Assembly (NCBI RefSeq): GCF_900143265.1
Contig: NZ_FRDJ01000009.1
Location: 1 to 64,000 of the forward strand
DNA from: Fervidobacterium gondwanense DSM 13020
GTDB taxonomy: Bacteria; Thermotogota; Thermotogae; Thermotogales; Fervidobacteriaceae
DNA: 64,000 nucleotides
Direction: 5' to 3'
The notes under the pieces were generated by a model, which was not told where the DNA came from, ran no database searches, and worked only from the letters and a program-made list of their open reading frames with translations. Positions 18,442 through 38,574 of the stretch are shown piece after piece. Within the stretch, counting starts at the first letter, position 1. Each line of letters starts with the position of its first letter. Both the position numbers and the translations under genes were made by a program.

Positions 18442-20460
18442 ATGGGTGAATACAATGAATATCTGAGTGTTTTTATCGATGAATCAAAAGAATATATTCA
18501 GCTTCTAAATGACTCGCTTCTCGAGTTAGAAAAAAATCCATCAGACATGGAACAAATCAATAGAGCTTTTCGGGCACTTCACACACTAAAGGGCATGGCC
18601 GGAACCATGGGATTTGAGAAACTTGCCAAACTGTGTCACAGAATGGAAAACTATCTTGAGGCTGTGCGTGGAGGAAAGGTAGAAATATCAAGCAATGAGC
18701 TTGATTTCTTATTCGCTGGTCTTGATATGATTGAAAAGATGATTGCAGAAATTATGAGCAGTGGCACAGACAATATAAGCGAAGATATCAACGGACTTGT
18801 TGAAATCTTCGAAAGGATAGCCAAAGGCGAAACAGTTTCTAAGGAAGTTCAAAAGGCAGAAAAGAATGTGCGTGAAGAAGAAAAAGTTATGGAGTCAAAA
18901 GATGTAGCAGATACATTCGCGCAAGAAGTAGTGAAGGACGTACTTGAAGAAGCAGCGAAGAAAAATATACCTGCATATCATATTGTTGTTACGCTTCAAG
19001 AAGGGACCCAGCTAAAATCTGCCAGAATGTACATGGTTTTCCACTCGCTGGAAGAACTTGGCGTAGAAATAATCCACTCAATTCCTTCTGTGGAGGATAT
19101 AGAAAATGAGAAGTTTGACCTATCTGTTGAACTGATTGGTGTTGGTAATGTACCGCAAGAAAAAATCTATGAAAAGCTTATGAACGTCTCCGAAGTCAAG
19201 AATGTAGTTGTTAAGCCACTTAAGCAGGTGGCAGCGAAGTCTGAGCAAACTGGTAAAAAAGATGAGAGAGTAACCGAAGAACAAACAAAAGAGCAGAAAA
19301 AAGTCAAAGTAACACAGACTGTGAGGGTAGATACTGAAAAACTTGATACTCTCATGAACTTAATGGGAGAACTTGTGATAGCGCGAAGTCGAATTGCAGA
19401 TATACTCAAGAAATACAATATCAAAGAAGTCGATGAATCCTTGGCACAGCTTAGCAGGATTACTTTGGACTTGCAAAACGTCGTTATGAAGGTCAGAATG
19501 GTTCCTATCGAATTTGTGTTTAACAGATTCCCAAGAATGGTAAGAGATCTGTCAAGATCGTTGAACAAAGAGATAAATTTTGTCATGGAAGGTGAAGAGA
19601 CAGAACTCGACAGAACTTTCGTGGAAGTTATAGGTGATCCATTAGTACATCTCATAAGAAACGCTATAGACCATGGAATCGAAACGAAAGAAGAAAGAAT
19701 AGCCCTTGGAAAACCACCGATCGGCACGGTAAAACTATCTGCTCGCCATGAAGGAAACAACGTAGTTATAGAAGTTGAAGACGATGGAAGAGGAATGAGT
19801 AGAGAAAAGATACTTAAAAAAGCTGTTGAAAGAGGATTAATAACTGAAGAAAAGGCCGCAGGAATGCCTGATGAGAAGATATTTGACTTTATATTCCTAC
19901 CCGGATTCTCAACCAAGGAACAAGTGAGTGAACTTTCTGGCCGAGGAGTAGGGATGGATGTTGTAAAAAACACTGTGGATTCGCTAAATGGCTCGATCTC
20001 AATTGAGAGTAAAATAGGAAAAGGTACGAAGGTAACTATAAGATTACCTTTAACACTTGCTATCATCCAGGCGTTGCTTGTCAAAGTAAATGAATACGTC
20101 TATGCCATTCCTATATCGATAATTGACAGCACGTTAATTATAAGTTCTGAAGACATAAAAGTGGTTCAAAACGAAGAAGTTATAGTCATACGCGGTGAGG
20201 TTATACCTTTGATTAAACTGTGGCACGTGTTTGAAATGAAACACGAAGAAACACCCAAGGAAATGAACGTTGTTGTCGTAAAGTCAGGTACGAGGAAGTA
20301 CGGTCTTACAGTTGATACATTAATAGGACAAGAGGATATAGTTATTAAATCACTTGGAAAGATATTCAGCGACGTCAGAATATTCAGTGGCGGTGCCACA
20401 CTCGGTGATGGTAGTATCGCACTAATATTAGACGTAGCAAATATTGTTGAAAATATTTAG
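18442..20460 (+). CDS. cheA: Chemotaxis histidine kinase CheA
   Basis: CheA phosphorylates itself in response to chemoreceptors and passes the phosphate to CheY. The domain order is complete: HPt with His47 in [12 protein letters not shown], a CheY-binding P2 domain (about 175-260), a charged linker, dimerisation helices (about 290-350), the ATPase with [16 protein letters not shown] and [10 protein letters not shown], and a CheW-like domain at the end. Length of 672 residues is almost that of the Thermotoga maritima protein. AAGGAGGG precedes the ATG. cheW follows within 20 bp. Confidence 0.97.
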
Positions 20461-20478: not shown

Positions 20479-20925
20479 ATGAGCGATAAGATCATGGAAT
20501 TCGAAGTGCTTGTTTTCAAAGCTCTCAATCAGGAAATGGCAATTGACGTTGAAATGGTGGAAATTGTAATAGAAAAAACAGAAATAACACCAGTACCAAG
20601 AGCAAGAAAAGTAATAGAAGGTGTGATTAACCTTAGAGGAAAGATAGTCCCGGTAATAAGCTTGCCATTGTTATTGTCGAGCAATGCAGAAAGTAACTAT
20701 AAAAAGATCATAATCGTAAAAATTGAGGATGTTGAATTCGGACTAATGGTTGACGAGGTTATAGGCGTTCTTAGAACCAGTAGCAATGAACTTGAGACAA
20801 ATTTAGGAAAAATGAATACATACGGCAAAAAAGCGAAAGGTCTTATAAAGAAAGATATGAGATTGATAGTTTATCTTAACCTGGAAGAAATATTAAAAGA
20901 GATTATAGGTTCGGAGGTGGCATAA
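20479..20925 (+). CDS. cheW: Chemotaxis coupling protein CheW
   Basis: CheW links chemoreceptors to CheA in the membrane array. The 148-residue product has the CheW double beta-barrel pattern: an opening strand with VLVFKALNQEMAIDV, VIEGVINLRGKIVPVISL, and a closing region with GLMVDEVIGV. The start is the ATG at 20479, 8 nt after GAGAGG; the GTG at 20470 lies within that site. It sits between cheA and cheY, with 1 nt before cheY. Confidence 0.95.
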   Translation: MSDKIMEFEVLVFKALNQEMAIDVEMVEIVIEKTEITPVPRARKVIEGVINLRGKIVPVISLPLLLSSNAESNYKKIIIVKIEDVEFGLMVDEVIGVLRTSSNELETNLGKMNTYGKKAKGLIKKDMRLIVYLNLEEILKEIIGSEVA

Positions 20926-20926
20926 G

Positions 20927-21286
20927 ATGGCACGTGTTTTAGTTGTTGATGATGCAGCTTTCATGAGGATGATGCTCAAAGATATACTTACAAAATCAGG
21001 ACATGAAGTTGTGGGAGAGGCTGCTAATGGCATCGAAGCGGTTGAGAAATACAAAGAACTAAAACCAGATGTAGTAACTATGGATATTACAATGCCCGAA
21101 ATGAACGGAATCGATGCAATAAAAGAAATTAAGAAAATTGATCCGAACGCGACAGTGATAGTGTGTAGTGCTATGGGTCAACAAGCAATGGTTATAGAAG
21201 CAATACAAGCTGGTGCAAAAGATTTCATAGTTAAACCTTTCCAAGCAGCAAGGGTAATAGAAGCTGTTCAAAAAGTCTTGAAATAA
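20927..21286 (+). CDS. cheY: Chemotaxis response regulator CheY
   Basis: A 119-residue single receiver domain that binds the flagellar switch when phosphorylated. The acidic pair Asp8-Asp9, phospho-acceptor Asp53 in VTMDITMPEMNG, the serine in CSAMGQQ and Lys103 in IVKPF are all present. GGAGGTGG precedes the ATG. It follows cheW and comes before the flagellar export genes, the same order as in Thermotoga maritima. Confidence 0.97.
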   Translation: MARVLVVDDAAFMRMMLKDILTKSGHEVVGEAANGIEAVEKYKELKPDVVTMDITMPEMNGIDAIKEIKKIDPNATVIVCSAMGQQAMVIEAIQAGAKDFIVKPFQAARVIEAVQKVLK

Positions 21287-21322
21287 TATCTTTGAAATTT
21301 TGAATTCGAGGAGAGATAAGAA

Positions 21323-21643
21323 ATCGAGAATTTAATAAGTTTCTTTATAGGACTTATTCTAATAATCTTGGTTTTGGTATTCACATATTGGTTCTTGAGA
21401 AGGAAGCTCCCCACAACTGTTGGGGGGCGTTTTGCTAAAGTACTAAGCAAAATCTACATAGACCGAACAACATACTTGGTTTTGGTAAGAATACTGAAAG
21501 AATATTACGTGATATTAGTCAGTCCAAACTACGCACAGGTACTGAAAAAACTAGACATGATAGATGAAGGAGAGATAGAAAAGTTAGAATCCGGAAAAAG
21601 TTTTGAGGATATTCTTAGTAAACTCGTTGGTGGTAAGAAATGA
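21323..21643 (+). CDS. fliO: FliO-like flagellar export protein (probable ATC start)
   Basis: A small protein directly before fliP: one N-terminal membrane helix, then a basic FLRRKLP stretch and a soluble tail of about 75 residues. This layout and position fit FliO, which helps assemble FliP rings. The frame opens after a TAA at 21317. The only standard start is a TTG at 21368, which lacks a ribosome-binding site and would cut the helix in half. AGGAGAG at 21309-21315 stands 7-9 nt before an ATC at 21323, which restores the full helix. I therefore place the start at ATC. Stop and fliP start overlap as ATGA. Confidence 0.7.
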   Translation: MENLISFFIGLILIILVLVFTYWFLRRKLPTTVGGRFAKVLSKIYIDRTTYLVLVRILKEYYVILVSPNYAQVLKKLDMIDEGEIEKLESGKSFEDILSKLVGGKK

Positions 21644-22395
21644 AAAAGTTCCTTACAATATTCTTCTTAATCCTTCTTTTTACATCGTCCTTTCCTCAGG
21701 ATGAAGTTCCATTACCTGGAATAAGTATTCAAGTCAATCCCAATCAATCACCAAGAGACTTAGTCGCTACTTTGGAAATACTTTTGGTGCTAACTGTTCT
21801 TACGTTAGCACCCAGTATTTTGATGCTGTTTACTTCATTTACAAGGATAATAATTGTATTTTCTTTTGTCAGAAACGCACTCGGAACTCGTCAAGTTCCA
21901 CCAAACCAGGTTCTTATTGGTTTAGCATTGATTTTAACATTTTTTATCATGCAACCTGTGTGGAACGATATAAACAATTCTGCGCTTCAACCTTATATGG
22001 ACGGAAAGATAACATATCAAGAATTCTTCTCAAGGACTATGGGCATTGTAAGAACATTTATGATTAAAGAACTTGTCAACCATCACAACGAAGACAATGT
22101 TTTTGTACTTTCACGAGCTTTGAATCAAAACGTGGATAGAGTAGAGGATGCGTCTGATTCGCTATTGACTTCAGCATTCATTTTGGGTGAAATAGAAATC
22201 GGTTTCAAAATGGGAATTTTAATCTACATACCTTTCATAATCATAGACATGGTTGTAGCAAGTATTTTGCTTTCCTTAGGTATGATAATGATTCCACCGG
22301 TTTTAGTCTCTCTACCTTTCAAGATATTAGTATTTGTCCTTGCTAATGGGTGGGAATCTGTAATAGTTAGCTTGGTAAAGAGTTTTGCTGGTTAG
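21640..22395 (+). CDS. fliP: Flagellar export-gate protein FliP
   Basis: FliP forms, with FliQ and FliR, the membrane gate of the flagellar type III export apparatus. The 251-residue protein has a signal peptide, the segment TSFTRIIIVFSFVRNALGTRQVPPNQ in overlapping conserved pieces (TRIIIVFSFVRNALG), LALILTFFIMQPVW, and the late GFKMGILIYIPFIIIDMVVAS helix region. It is the last gene of the run and ends 20-30 bp before a terminator. Confidence 0.97.
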   Translation: MKKFLTIFFLILLFTSSFPQDEVPLPGISIQVNPNQSPRDLVATLEILLVLTVLTLAPSILMLFTSFTRIIIVFSFVRNALGTRQVPPNQVLIGLALILTFFIMQPVWNDINNSALQPYMDGKITYQEFFSRTMGIVRTFMIKELVNHHNEDNVFVLSRALNQNVDRVEDASDSLLTSAFILGEIEIGFKMGILIYIPFIIIDMVVASILLSLGMIMIPPVLVSLPFKILVFVLANGWESVIVSLVKSFAG

Positions 22396-36536: not shown

Positions 36537-37460
36537 TTACCACCTTCCGTGAGCTTTCTCATTGTAGAGTTCTAAGAAAACAGTTTCGTAACGCTTTAAT
36601 ATATATTTGTTCTTTGTGCTCCACATCATCTCAACATTTCTGTGAAATCCACTTTCTGTATAATTTGTTGAGCCAGTAATAAGAAGAGAATCAACAATTA
36701 TAAACTTATGATGCAACATTCGACTACTTACGATTACAGAATTGTGCGGCTTGTATTTTAACAAAGGACTTGATAAAAACCATTTATCCGTAACTAATCT
36801 AACATCTACCCCTGTACTTTCTTTGTATTTTAGTGAAGCAAGCAGATTTGAATCAGTAAACGCATAAGCACATATCCAGACCCTTTTCTTTGCATTTTGA
36901 ATAGTTTTTAATACAAATTCTTCTGTCTTATCAACAGGAGATACTTGAAAGTCCTTGACTTTAACAATTGTACCATAATCCCAAGCTTTTAGGAAGAACT
37001 CTTTAAATCTCTCAACGTACTGAACTGAAAAGAATATCATGTCATTTAAGCCACTTTCTAAACCACTTTTGCTGAAATTTGCTGATCCGAAAACCACACC
37101 ATTGTCGTTAACCATGAATTTTACATGGTGGAGTCCTTTTGAGATATCAATCTTCGAATTAATATTTGTAACTGGCTTCTCAGTGAGAACTCTCACGTCT
37201 ATACCATTCTTTTGAAGACTTATCAACGCGTTTAGTATTTCAGGATGTGAAACATCGAGAGAAGAGACGTAAAGGAAGGAATTAGAACCGTACATAAATT
37301 GTAAAATCGTATCTGTTAACGGACCATACTCTGTAAAGCCCACTTTGTAGTCAGACTTTACAGACAGTATCTTGAAAAAGAATATGGTACATATTGGAGC
37401 TACTATGCTAAGAATTACTACGTAGGGTATGATTTTGTATCGTGCAAAATTACCTTTCAT
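36537..37460 (-). CDS. Phospholipase D-like protein with N-terminal membrane anchor
   Basis: A 307-residue protein with one hydrophobic helix (IPYVVILSIVAPICTIFFF) and two HKD half-sites: HHVKFMVNDNGVVFGSANFS in the first half and HHKFIIVDSLLITGSTNYT in the second. The pattern HxKx4-5D is complete in the second; in the first the residue in the aspartate position reads Asn-Asp. Such proteins act as phospholipases, cardiolipin synthases or nucleases; the short, anchored form resembles exported nuclease-type PLDs. It lies between the ABC exporter and the Sua5 gene. Confidence 0.8.
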   Translation of the reverse strand: MKGNFARYKIIPYVVILSIVAPICTIFFFKILSVKSDYKVGFTEYGPLTDTILQFMYGSNSFLYVSSLDVSHPEILNALISLQKNGIDVRVLTEKPVTNINSKIDISKGLHHVKFMVNDNGVVFGSANFSKSGLESGLNDMIFFSVQYVERFKEFFLKAWDYGTIVKVKDFQVSPVDKTEEFVLKTIQNAKKRVWICAYAFTDSNLLASLKYKESTGVDVRLVTDKWFLSSPLLKYKPHNSVIVSSRMLHHKFIIVDSLLITGSTNYTESGFHRNVEMMWSTKNKYILKRYETVFLELYNEKAHGRW

Positions 37461-37473
37461 ATACTTAATCTTC

Positions 37474-38574
37474 TTACACCCCTACAGATAGTCGTTTCCT
37501 GTTGAGTACAACAATTAGAGCAAAAAAGAAAATATAGAGAGTTGGAACAAGCAGATGATTTTGAAATGCTTCAAAGCCGTCTACCTTTCTCAGTGCATCA
37601 ACAGTGTAAGTGATTGGTAAAAATTGAGCTATTGATCTGACTATATGGTTGGCTTGTTTGAGCGGGAAATAAAAGCCTCCAACAAACATCTGGACTTGAA
37701 AAAATATCTGCTCAAATATGAAAAGCCTTGAAGTATTCTTAGATACGGTCAAGATTGCCATTGCCATAGAAATCATGACGGCGGATGCCATAGAAACATG
37801 AATCAGCATCGTCGGGACGTATCTCATAACTTGCACACCTTTCAGTTGCGCAACAAAACTCAGGACTATCAAACCAATCACAAGGACAATCATACAAATT
37901 AGACCGATTAGTGTGTAAAGAGTTATAAGACTCGTCGGAGTTAAATATAACCTTTTAACAATTCCTCTGCGATGCGTATAAGTTAATATATCCAAGAAGC
38001 CAAACAAGAAAGCCGATAGAATCGCCATCCCTATAACGCCCGGATAGATAAAATAGTTGTAATTGAATTGTGTAGCATTCAGCTTATGGACGGCATACTC
38101 AATTCTTTCTGAACCTCCGATTGAACTGAATACTCCATTTAAAATGTCAGCCGCGATCTGCGATTCCTGCCTTACAGGTACGTAGTATATTTCTATATCC
38201 AATTTTCTCATCAATCTTGTGTTTCTCAACAGATTAGCTAACCCGAATCTTGAGTCAAAATCTTTTGGTAACACTACAAAAGCGTTTATCTTCCCATTCT
38301 TAAGTTCTTCCTTGAGAACTTCTATATTTGAATTTTCTACAAATTCAGCTTCGAATTGCTTTATAGACGTAAAAACATCTTTCAGTATTTCGCTTTTCCC
38401 AAGTATTTTAACCTTAAGACTTATATTTTCCCCGACATTTCCAAAAATCGAGGTCAGTATTAAGAATAATAGTGTTGGAAACAAGACCAACCAAAAAACA
38501 CTCTCTTTTGACCTTATGAAAAGTTCCTTAAATAGTGCGCTAAAAATCTCAAAAATATGTGCCAAATTATACAC
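37474..38574 (-). CDS. ABC-2 type exporter permease
   Basis: A 366-residue membrane protein. One N-terminal helix is followed by an outer domain of about 150 residues, then five more helices, with the conserved ABC-2 region around FYFPLKQANHIVRSIAQFLPITYTVDALR in pieces. Together with the ATPase and the second permease upstream it forms a three-gene exporter like the drug or lipid exporters of the YhfH/DrrB type. The substrate is unknown. The GTG start is only weakly supported; a TTG three codons later is an alternative. Confidence 0.82.
   Translation of the reverse strand: MYNLAHIFEIFSALFKELFIRSKESVFWLVLFPTLLFLILTSIFGNVGENISLKVKILGKSEILKDVFTSIKQFEAEFVENSNIEVLKEELKNGKINAFVVLPKDFDSRFGLANLLRNTRLMRKLDIEIYYVPVRQESQIAADILNGVFSSIGGSERIEYAVHKLNATQFNYNYFIYPGVIGMAILSAFLFGFLDILTYTHRRGIVKRLYLTPTSLITLYTLIGLICMIVLVIGLIVLSFVAQLKGVQVMRYVPTMLIHVSMASAVMISMAMAILTVSKNTSRLFIFEQIFFQVQMFVGGFYFPLKQANHIVRSIAQFLPITYTVDALRKVDGFEAFQNHLLVPTLYIFFFALIVVLNRKRLSVGV

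Follow-up and report, generated by a model that had tools for sequence, protein, structure and literature searches.

A conserved and very likely non-canonical start codon behind a Shine–Dalgarno sequence for fliO in Fervidobacterium gondwanense and its relatives

Where does translation of fliO begin in Fervidobacterium gondwanense? The window (the whole stretch of DNA that was analyzed, 64,000 nt) holds the gene run cheA-cheW-cheY-fliO-fliP, with the single FliO match of the genome lying between cheY and fliP. The fliO frame opens after a stop codon and has no ATG, GTG or TTG before codon 16. The initial annotation, made from the sequence alone, proposed that the gene starts at ATC and that its expression may be kept low or controlled. 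The features of the locus are as follows.

18442..20460, + strand: first gene of the run, from the ORF list; we take it to be cheA from its sequence pattern
20479..20925, + strand: presumably a cheW-like gene, in the ORF list from GTG 20470; SD score of the ATG, 14.3
20927..21286, + strand: cheY, the control gene, with a canonical ATG start (PF00072, E 6.9e-33)
21309..21315, + strand: Shine–Dalgarno (SD) sequence AGGAGAG, 7 nt before ATC (sequence reading)
21317..21319, + strand: in-frame TAA that opens the fliO frame (sequence reading)
21323..21325, + strand: ATC, very likely the fliO start codon (all 15 FliO-bearing genomes of the family share the codon class)
21323..21643, + strand: fliO, 106 codons (PF04347; TIGR03500 below cut-off)
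21332..21397, + strand: FliO membrane helix, partly lost with a start at TTG 21368 (hydropathy, alignment)
21407..21429, + strand: terminator-like hairpin in fliO (folding, frozen synonymous sites, motif search)
21640..22395, + strand: fliP, its ATG overlapping the fliO stop (ATGA, 21640-21643) (PF00813, E 2.7e-71)

The FliO assignment rests on profile PF04347 (E 3.1e-10, 40.5 bits, passing the cut-off of 22); TIGR03500 also matched (E 7.8e-12), its score of 45.1 falling below the NCBIfam threshold of 55.25. Direct reading confirmed that the frame opens after the TAA, which is followed by GAA and then by ATC 21323-21325. The 7-nt gap from AGGAGAG to ATC bears out the earlier view that the two are well spaced. 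Pairing with the 16S tail reached −11.0 kcal/mol at best, at spacing register 8, the stacking-energy table and the tail having been entered by hand. To calibrate the register we used the first ATG in each of 61 long frames of the window, a set that certainly includes spurious ones; the frames with a clear SD peak at 6–10. The 15-base 16S tail pattern, GGATCACCTCCTTTC, occurs once in the genome. TTG 21368, the only early canonical codon, was said to lack a ribosome-binding site, and we found no SD-like run in the 17 nt ahead of it (gacttattctaataatc). The best 19-residue mean hydropathy is 2.9 from ATC versus 0.65 from TTG. Hence a TTG start removes most of the helix, as had been claimed, and the full N-terminal helix, the protein's only one, ahead of the cytoplasmic domain, is present only with the ATC start.

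Is the region upstream of the TTG translated? In 10 genomes of Fervidobacterium and its sister genus, residues F7, I9, G10 and L11 are invariant, while 2, 2, 4 and 5 codons, respectively, are used to encode them. This pattern indicates that purifying selection on the protein extends to residues ahead of the gene's first canonical codon, and therefore that translation begins before that codon. Between the stop and residue 7 lie the codons GAA, ATC, GAG, AAT, TTA, ATA and AGT, among which ATC alone would be plausible as a start at the proper spacing.

We then compared the start across relatives, as the initial annotation had suggested. The survey covered the Thermotogota; a FliO match was present in 73 of 103 genomes, all 73 loci were read, and a fliP frame was found in each fetched locus. 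Eight of the nine Fervidobacterium genomes carry fliO (the ninth is 60% complete), with ATC in six, including that of the window, and ATA in two. Both genomes of the sister genus (g2) have ATA. In these ten genomes, four of the relatives being single-contig, the codon is thus ATC or ATA in 10/10 and ATG, GTG or TTG in 0/10, with SD energies of −9.8 to −13.6 kcal/mol at register 7–9. ATC, ATA or ATT (AUH) is found in all 15 genomes of the window's family that have FliO. Another genus of this family (g4; G081–G084, 96–99% complete) gave no FliO match, and may have lost flagella.

Across the three nearest families (f1, f2 and f3, labelled as the family and order of the window; 40 genomes with FliO), we counted 16 ATA, 10 ATC, 4 ATT, 8 ATG and 2 TTG. 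AUH therefore stands at the same place behind an SD in 30 of the 40, with energies of −8.3 to −14.3 kcal/mol at register 7–11, and these three families account for every AUH genome. The canonical exceptions are the ATG starts, in g12 and g13, and the TTG starts, in g10. Of the alignment columns between −6 and +8, that of the aligned codon is the only one that is start-like in all 40. A different conserved start in relatives, which the initial annotation had named as telling against its reading, did not emerge in the genus (8/8) or the family (15/15). The overlap of the fliP ATG with the fliO stop recurs in 15/15, 10/11 and 10/14 genomes of the three families, the window's family first. Over the whole phylum, 39 starts are non-canonical (16 ATA, 10 ATC, 4 ATT and 9 ACG), 33 are canonical (24 ATG, 5 GTG and 4 TTG) and 1 is unassigned. 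These totals include six automatic calls corrected by hand, with G046, G054, G062, G061 and G013 moved to an upstream in-frame ATG and G100 to ACG; before correction, the script gave 34 AUH, 8 ACG and 31 canonical of 73. G049 was left out of the start counts, its frame being shifted upstream of the helix. Compared by eye with sister genomes, its fliO (L101) is shorter by a G and by a C in two runs, which reflects either a genuine change or a mistake in assembly.

The same comparison bears on the quality of the window's own sequence. The assembly consists of 26 contigs, and an assembly or sequencing error, such as one creating the TAA, could in principle have produced the unusual frame. Yet 29 further genomes show the same codon class, and eleven of these are listed with a single contig, leaving an error with a negligible chance. 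Nor does the argument need TAA 21317, since other genomes have other upstream stops.

Could the ribosome start elsewhere in the frame? A start much further upstream is ruled out by the stops, which lie one codon before ATC in the window and, as TGA, directly before ATA in G072, G073 and G074. Between the upstream stop and codon 10, no ATG, GTG or TTG occurs in 12 of the 30 AUH genomes. The remaining 18 have at least one canonical codon, and over the range scanned none scored within 2 units of the AUH codon. An in-frame GTG lies three codons upstream, inside the SD, in 9 of the 40 genomes; in G072–G074 a stop follows it, and in the other six, all among these 18 AUH genomes, it could be used in principle.

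A start further downstream, at TTG 21368 or later, would yield a short FliO without most of the helix, as some database entries seem to be. A 2025 survey describes Thermotogota FliO without a membrane segment and does not decide between annotation error and divergence (PMC12403147). In Salmonella, the cytoplasmic domain of FliO alone is reported to restore motility when overproduced (PMC2947984). However, the amino acids of the helix are conserved while their codons change synonymously, the internal canonical codons lie at differing positions between genomes, and TTG 21368 lacks an SD; we consider an internal start very improbable. A true start that goes unrecognised would yield exactly such entries without a membrane segment. 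For genomes with an AUH start, this evidence from the genome sequences favors annotation error over divergence, and so offers a concrete answer to the published question. Gene callers may truncate or miss such genes.

Another way to do without a start at ATC would be a CheY-FliO product made by stop-codon read-through or frameshifting. In some genomes, e.g. G077–G079, the cheY stop is indeed in the fliO frame. But the frames differ in G080, 3–49 nt separate the cheY stop from the fliO start in the AUH genomes, and the SD is kept throughout, making such a fusion exceedingly unlikely. Taken together, these data indicate that the fliO start at ATC 21323 is very likely real.

Is this start particular to fliO? 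The neighboring cheY served as a control, and its start is canonical in 73 of 73 genomes (72 ATG, 1 TTG). A conserved non-canonical start with an SD is seen at fliO and is absent from cheY. Surveying the window for non-canonical starts flagged 2 of 60 ORFs, fliO included, and eight more stretches of the same genome (152,295 bases, 4,000 of them overlapping the window) gave 3 of 138. Only fliO, among all flagged frames, was shown to be conserved. Two of the four others have a canonical alternative nearby: ORF 36540-37484 (minus strand; phospholipase-D-like by eye) has ATT behind an SD but ATG three codons after it, and the frame at C2 61128-61616 has ATG at codon 1. A third, presumably mnmE (C2 52112-53476; L106:12112-13476), has ATT with a good SD, its one canonical alternative being a TTG in a poor position. 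We did not retain it as a conserved case, ATG, GTG or TTG lying near the same place in 5/5 readable of 18 relatives. The fourth, which we take to be TrmFO-like (L110:10692-12020, minus strand; C9 about 70692-72020), has no plausible start near its conserved N-terminus, perhaps because of a frameshift or deletion.

As a positive control we read infC by eye, without scoring. ATT was seen in 9/9 readable loci of Fervidobacterium and its sister genus (the tenth, L094, was unreadable); the 9 loci from the other genera of the family read ATC or ATT. In five of the nine readable loci, GTG or TTG is also in frame within the SD. In 5/5 genomes of genera g3 and g5 (G077:C18, G078:C4, G079:C1, G080:C1 and G085:C1), infC, on the opposite strand, lies 3.4–3.5 kb downstream of fliO, and both genes have AUH starts.

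In two other lineages, ACG seems to take the place of AUH. In genus g32, six of seven genomes have ACG (L067, L068, L074, L075, L077 and L100), behind very long SDs at the end of cheY that are the strongest of the set (−21.3 to −25.4 kcal/mol). Three f11 genomes also have ACG, with SDs of −10.3 to −13.2 kcal/mol. These starts are likely, going by sequence, and less certain than AUH, since in-frame alternatives exist. In three g32 genomes the SD itself contains an in-frame GTG, three codons ahead of ACG; the other three ACG genomes of g32 lack this GTG, but two of them carry an ATG shortly before the helix that has no SD. G102, an f11 genome, shows an ATG in frame near the helix, its SD being moderate (−7.6).

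Does the weakness of the codon itself matter? On a tree of CheY plus FliP, made by a quick method with several deep forks weakly supported and the root not inferred, the start codons need at least 11 changes and the classes (canonical, AUH, ACG) at least 5; AUH codons interchange while the class persists. SDs are stronger ahead of non-canonical than canonical starts (medians, −12.2 versus −7.7 kcal/mol; P 2e-6 over 39 versus 33 genomes, P 0.001 over 13 versus 17 genus means), a test that is biased and partly circular because SD strength helped choose the starts; in the AUH set, alignment fixes the position as well. The trait can be dispensed with, since g12 and Thermotoga use ATG and g10 uses TTG. 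Here we equate g13 with Thermotoga, as the CheY sequences of G090 and PDB 1TMY are identical, the latter presumably being the Thermotoga maritima protein.

These patterns also allow the AUH start to be real yet without regulatory meaning: given a strong SD and a supply of ribosomes from cheY, any near-cognate codon would be tolerated, and the codon would drift. Re-initiation is plausible because cheY ends 3–49 nt upstream of the fliO start in the 30 AUH genomes, and the codon does vary among ATA, ATC and ATT. However, the tree shows many codon changes (≥11) yet only 5 class changes, and canonical codons are confined to two groups (g12/g13 and g10) in the three nearest families. ATG, one step away and normally favored, would be expected to recur often under drift, and ACG in two other lineages argues for maintained weakness. 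We therefore judge drift unlikely, though it is the most serious rival to a role for the start. Retention of AUH in 30 of 40 genomes, turnover among ATA, ATC and ATT, and ACG elsewhere point to selection for weak initiation as such.

How might a weak start be used? We favor, as the probable reading, a start at ATC coupled to a dosage mechanism in which weak, IF3-sensitive initiation keeps the level of FliO low. A good SD would place initiator tRNA at ATC 21323, giving a protein expected to carry fMet at position 1; the weak codon would cut initiation several-fold and render it sensitive to IF3. Reporter data from S. aureus are in favor: with AUU and AUA starts and extended SDs, the yield was about 10% of that from AUG in poor medium and, for one gene, up to 30% in rich medium (PMC13009471). 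For E. coli, a paper citing others states that IF3 inhibits initiation at non-canonical starts (PMC2268962). The earlier suggestion of weak or controlled expression fits these AUU and AUA genes, by analogy, and fliO translation is probably low and IF3-sensitive. The start would sit at a step-down in the gene run, with chemotaxis proteins, expected to be abundant, before it, and FliO, a few-copy export-gate scaffold, and FliP after it. Weak initiation would set FliO and, by coupling at the overlapping start, FliP below CheY, and this dosage may be the reason for the codon. Salmonella FliO is needed for efficient FliP ring assembly, according to two reports (PMC2947984, PMC5542437). It is in Salmonella that the dosage need of FliO has been studied. 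Conservation of a rare start suggests that the cells purposely keep FliO scarce, and makes it possible to test directly for a dosage limit on the export-gate scaffold.

A second conserved element lies within the gene. The hairpin at 21407-21429, CTCCCC...GGGGGGCG followed by TTTT, resembles a terminator. Fervidobacteriaceae fliO has CTCCCC(AAC...GTT)GGGGGGCGTTTT or an equivalent at codons 29–37, and the hairpin folds in all 15 family genomes with FliO (−14.7 to −21.0 kcal/mol). In Fervidobacterium and the sister genus, invariant residues with codon choice use a single codon at 5/7 positions within codons 29–38 (21407-21436) versus 1/29 elsewhere (Fisher P 3e-4). Allowing up to 2 mismatches, the motif has one copy in each of the 10 genomes of these two genera and none in the other 10 of the 20 genomes searched. 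In the ATT genus g3 and in g5 the hairpin sequences differ from this motif but fold similarly. Two other roles were considered and rejected: frame shifting on the G run, the minus-one stop of Fervidobacterium being absent from the ATT genus (by eye), and pairing of the SD with the C arm, seen in 9/15 shortened folds but 0/15 longer folds.

This hairpin may add to the effect of the weak start. The two, 84 nt apart, could form a translation-coupled attenuator in Fervidobacteriaceae, an extension of the dosage mechanism that we hold to be doubtful, termination at the hairpin being a guess because the U run is short. When initiation at AUH is rare or blocked by IF3, the nascent RNA would be left bare, the hairpin would form, and transcription would stop short of the remainder of fliO and of fliP; with frequent initiation, transcription would pass. 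Other lineages of the phylum would arrive at the same limit on dosage by other means, ACG with a very long SD or ATG with a weak SD. If true, building of the flagellar export gate would be linked to IF3 and to translation capacity.

To our knowledge, few bacterial genes are known to have a conserved non-canonical start. Translation of E. coli pcnB, unrelated to fliO in function, is reportedly limited by its AUU start, to go by the title of Binns and Masters (2002). In the open literature, subscription papers being mostly outside the search, we found no report of a non-canonical start for fliO or any flagellar gene. The gene joins this class, with unusual breadth and codon turnover. Like FliO of Salmonella and other phyla, the protein described here has one membrane helix and a small cytoplasmic domain and is expected to act on FliP; unlike here, those accounts, in the parts available, mention no non-canonical start (PMC12403147, PMC2947984, PMC5542437). 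Firmicutes ccpN (AUA) and cvfC1 (AUU) likewise have AUH starts that are conserved and follow a strong or extended SD, and their reporters yield about 10% of the AUG level in poor medium; these are other genes in another phylum, studied by ribosome profiling and reporters, whereas the case for fliO is comparative (PMC13009471). The closest parallel in form is infC, with its conserved AUH start behind an SD. As the same paper relates, the S. aureus infC start is AUA and E. coli infC regulates itself through IF3 (PMC13009471). FliO, unlike the infC product, is no translation factor, and so any effect of IF3 on fliO would be one-way.
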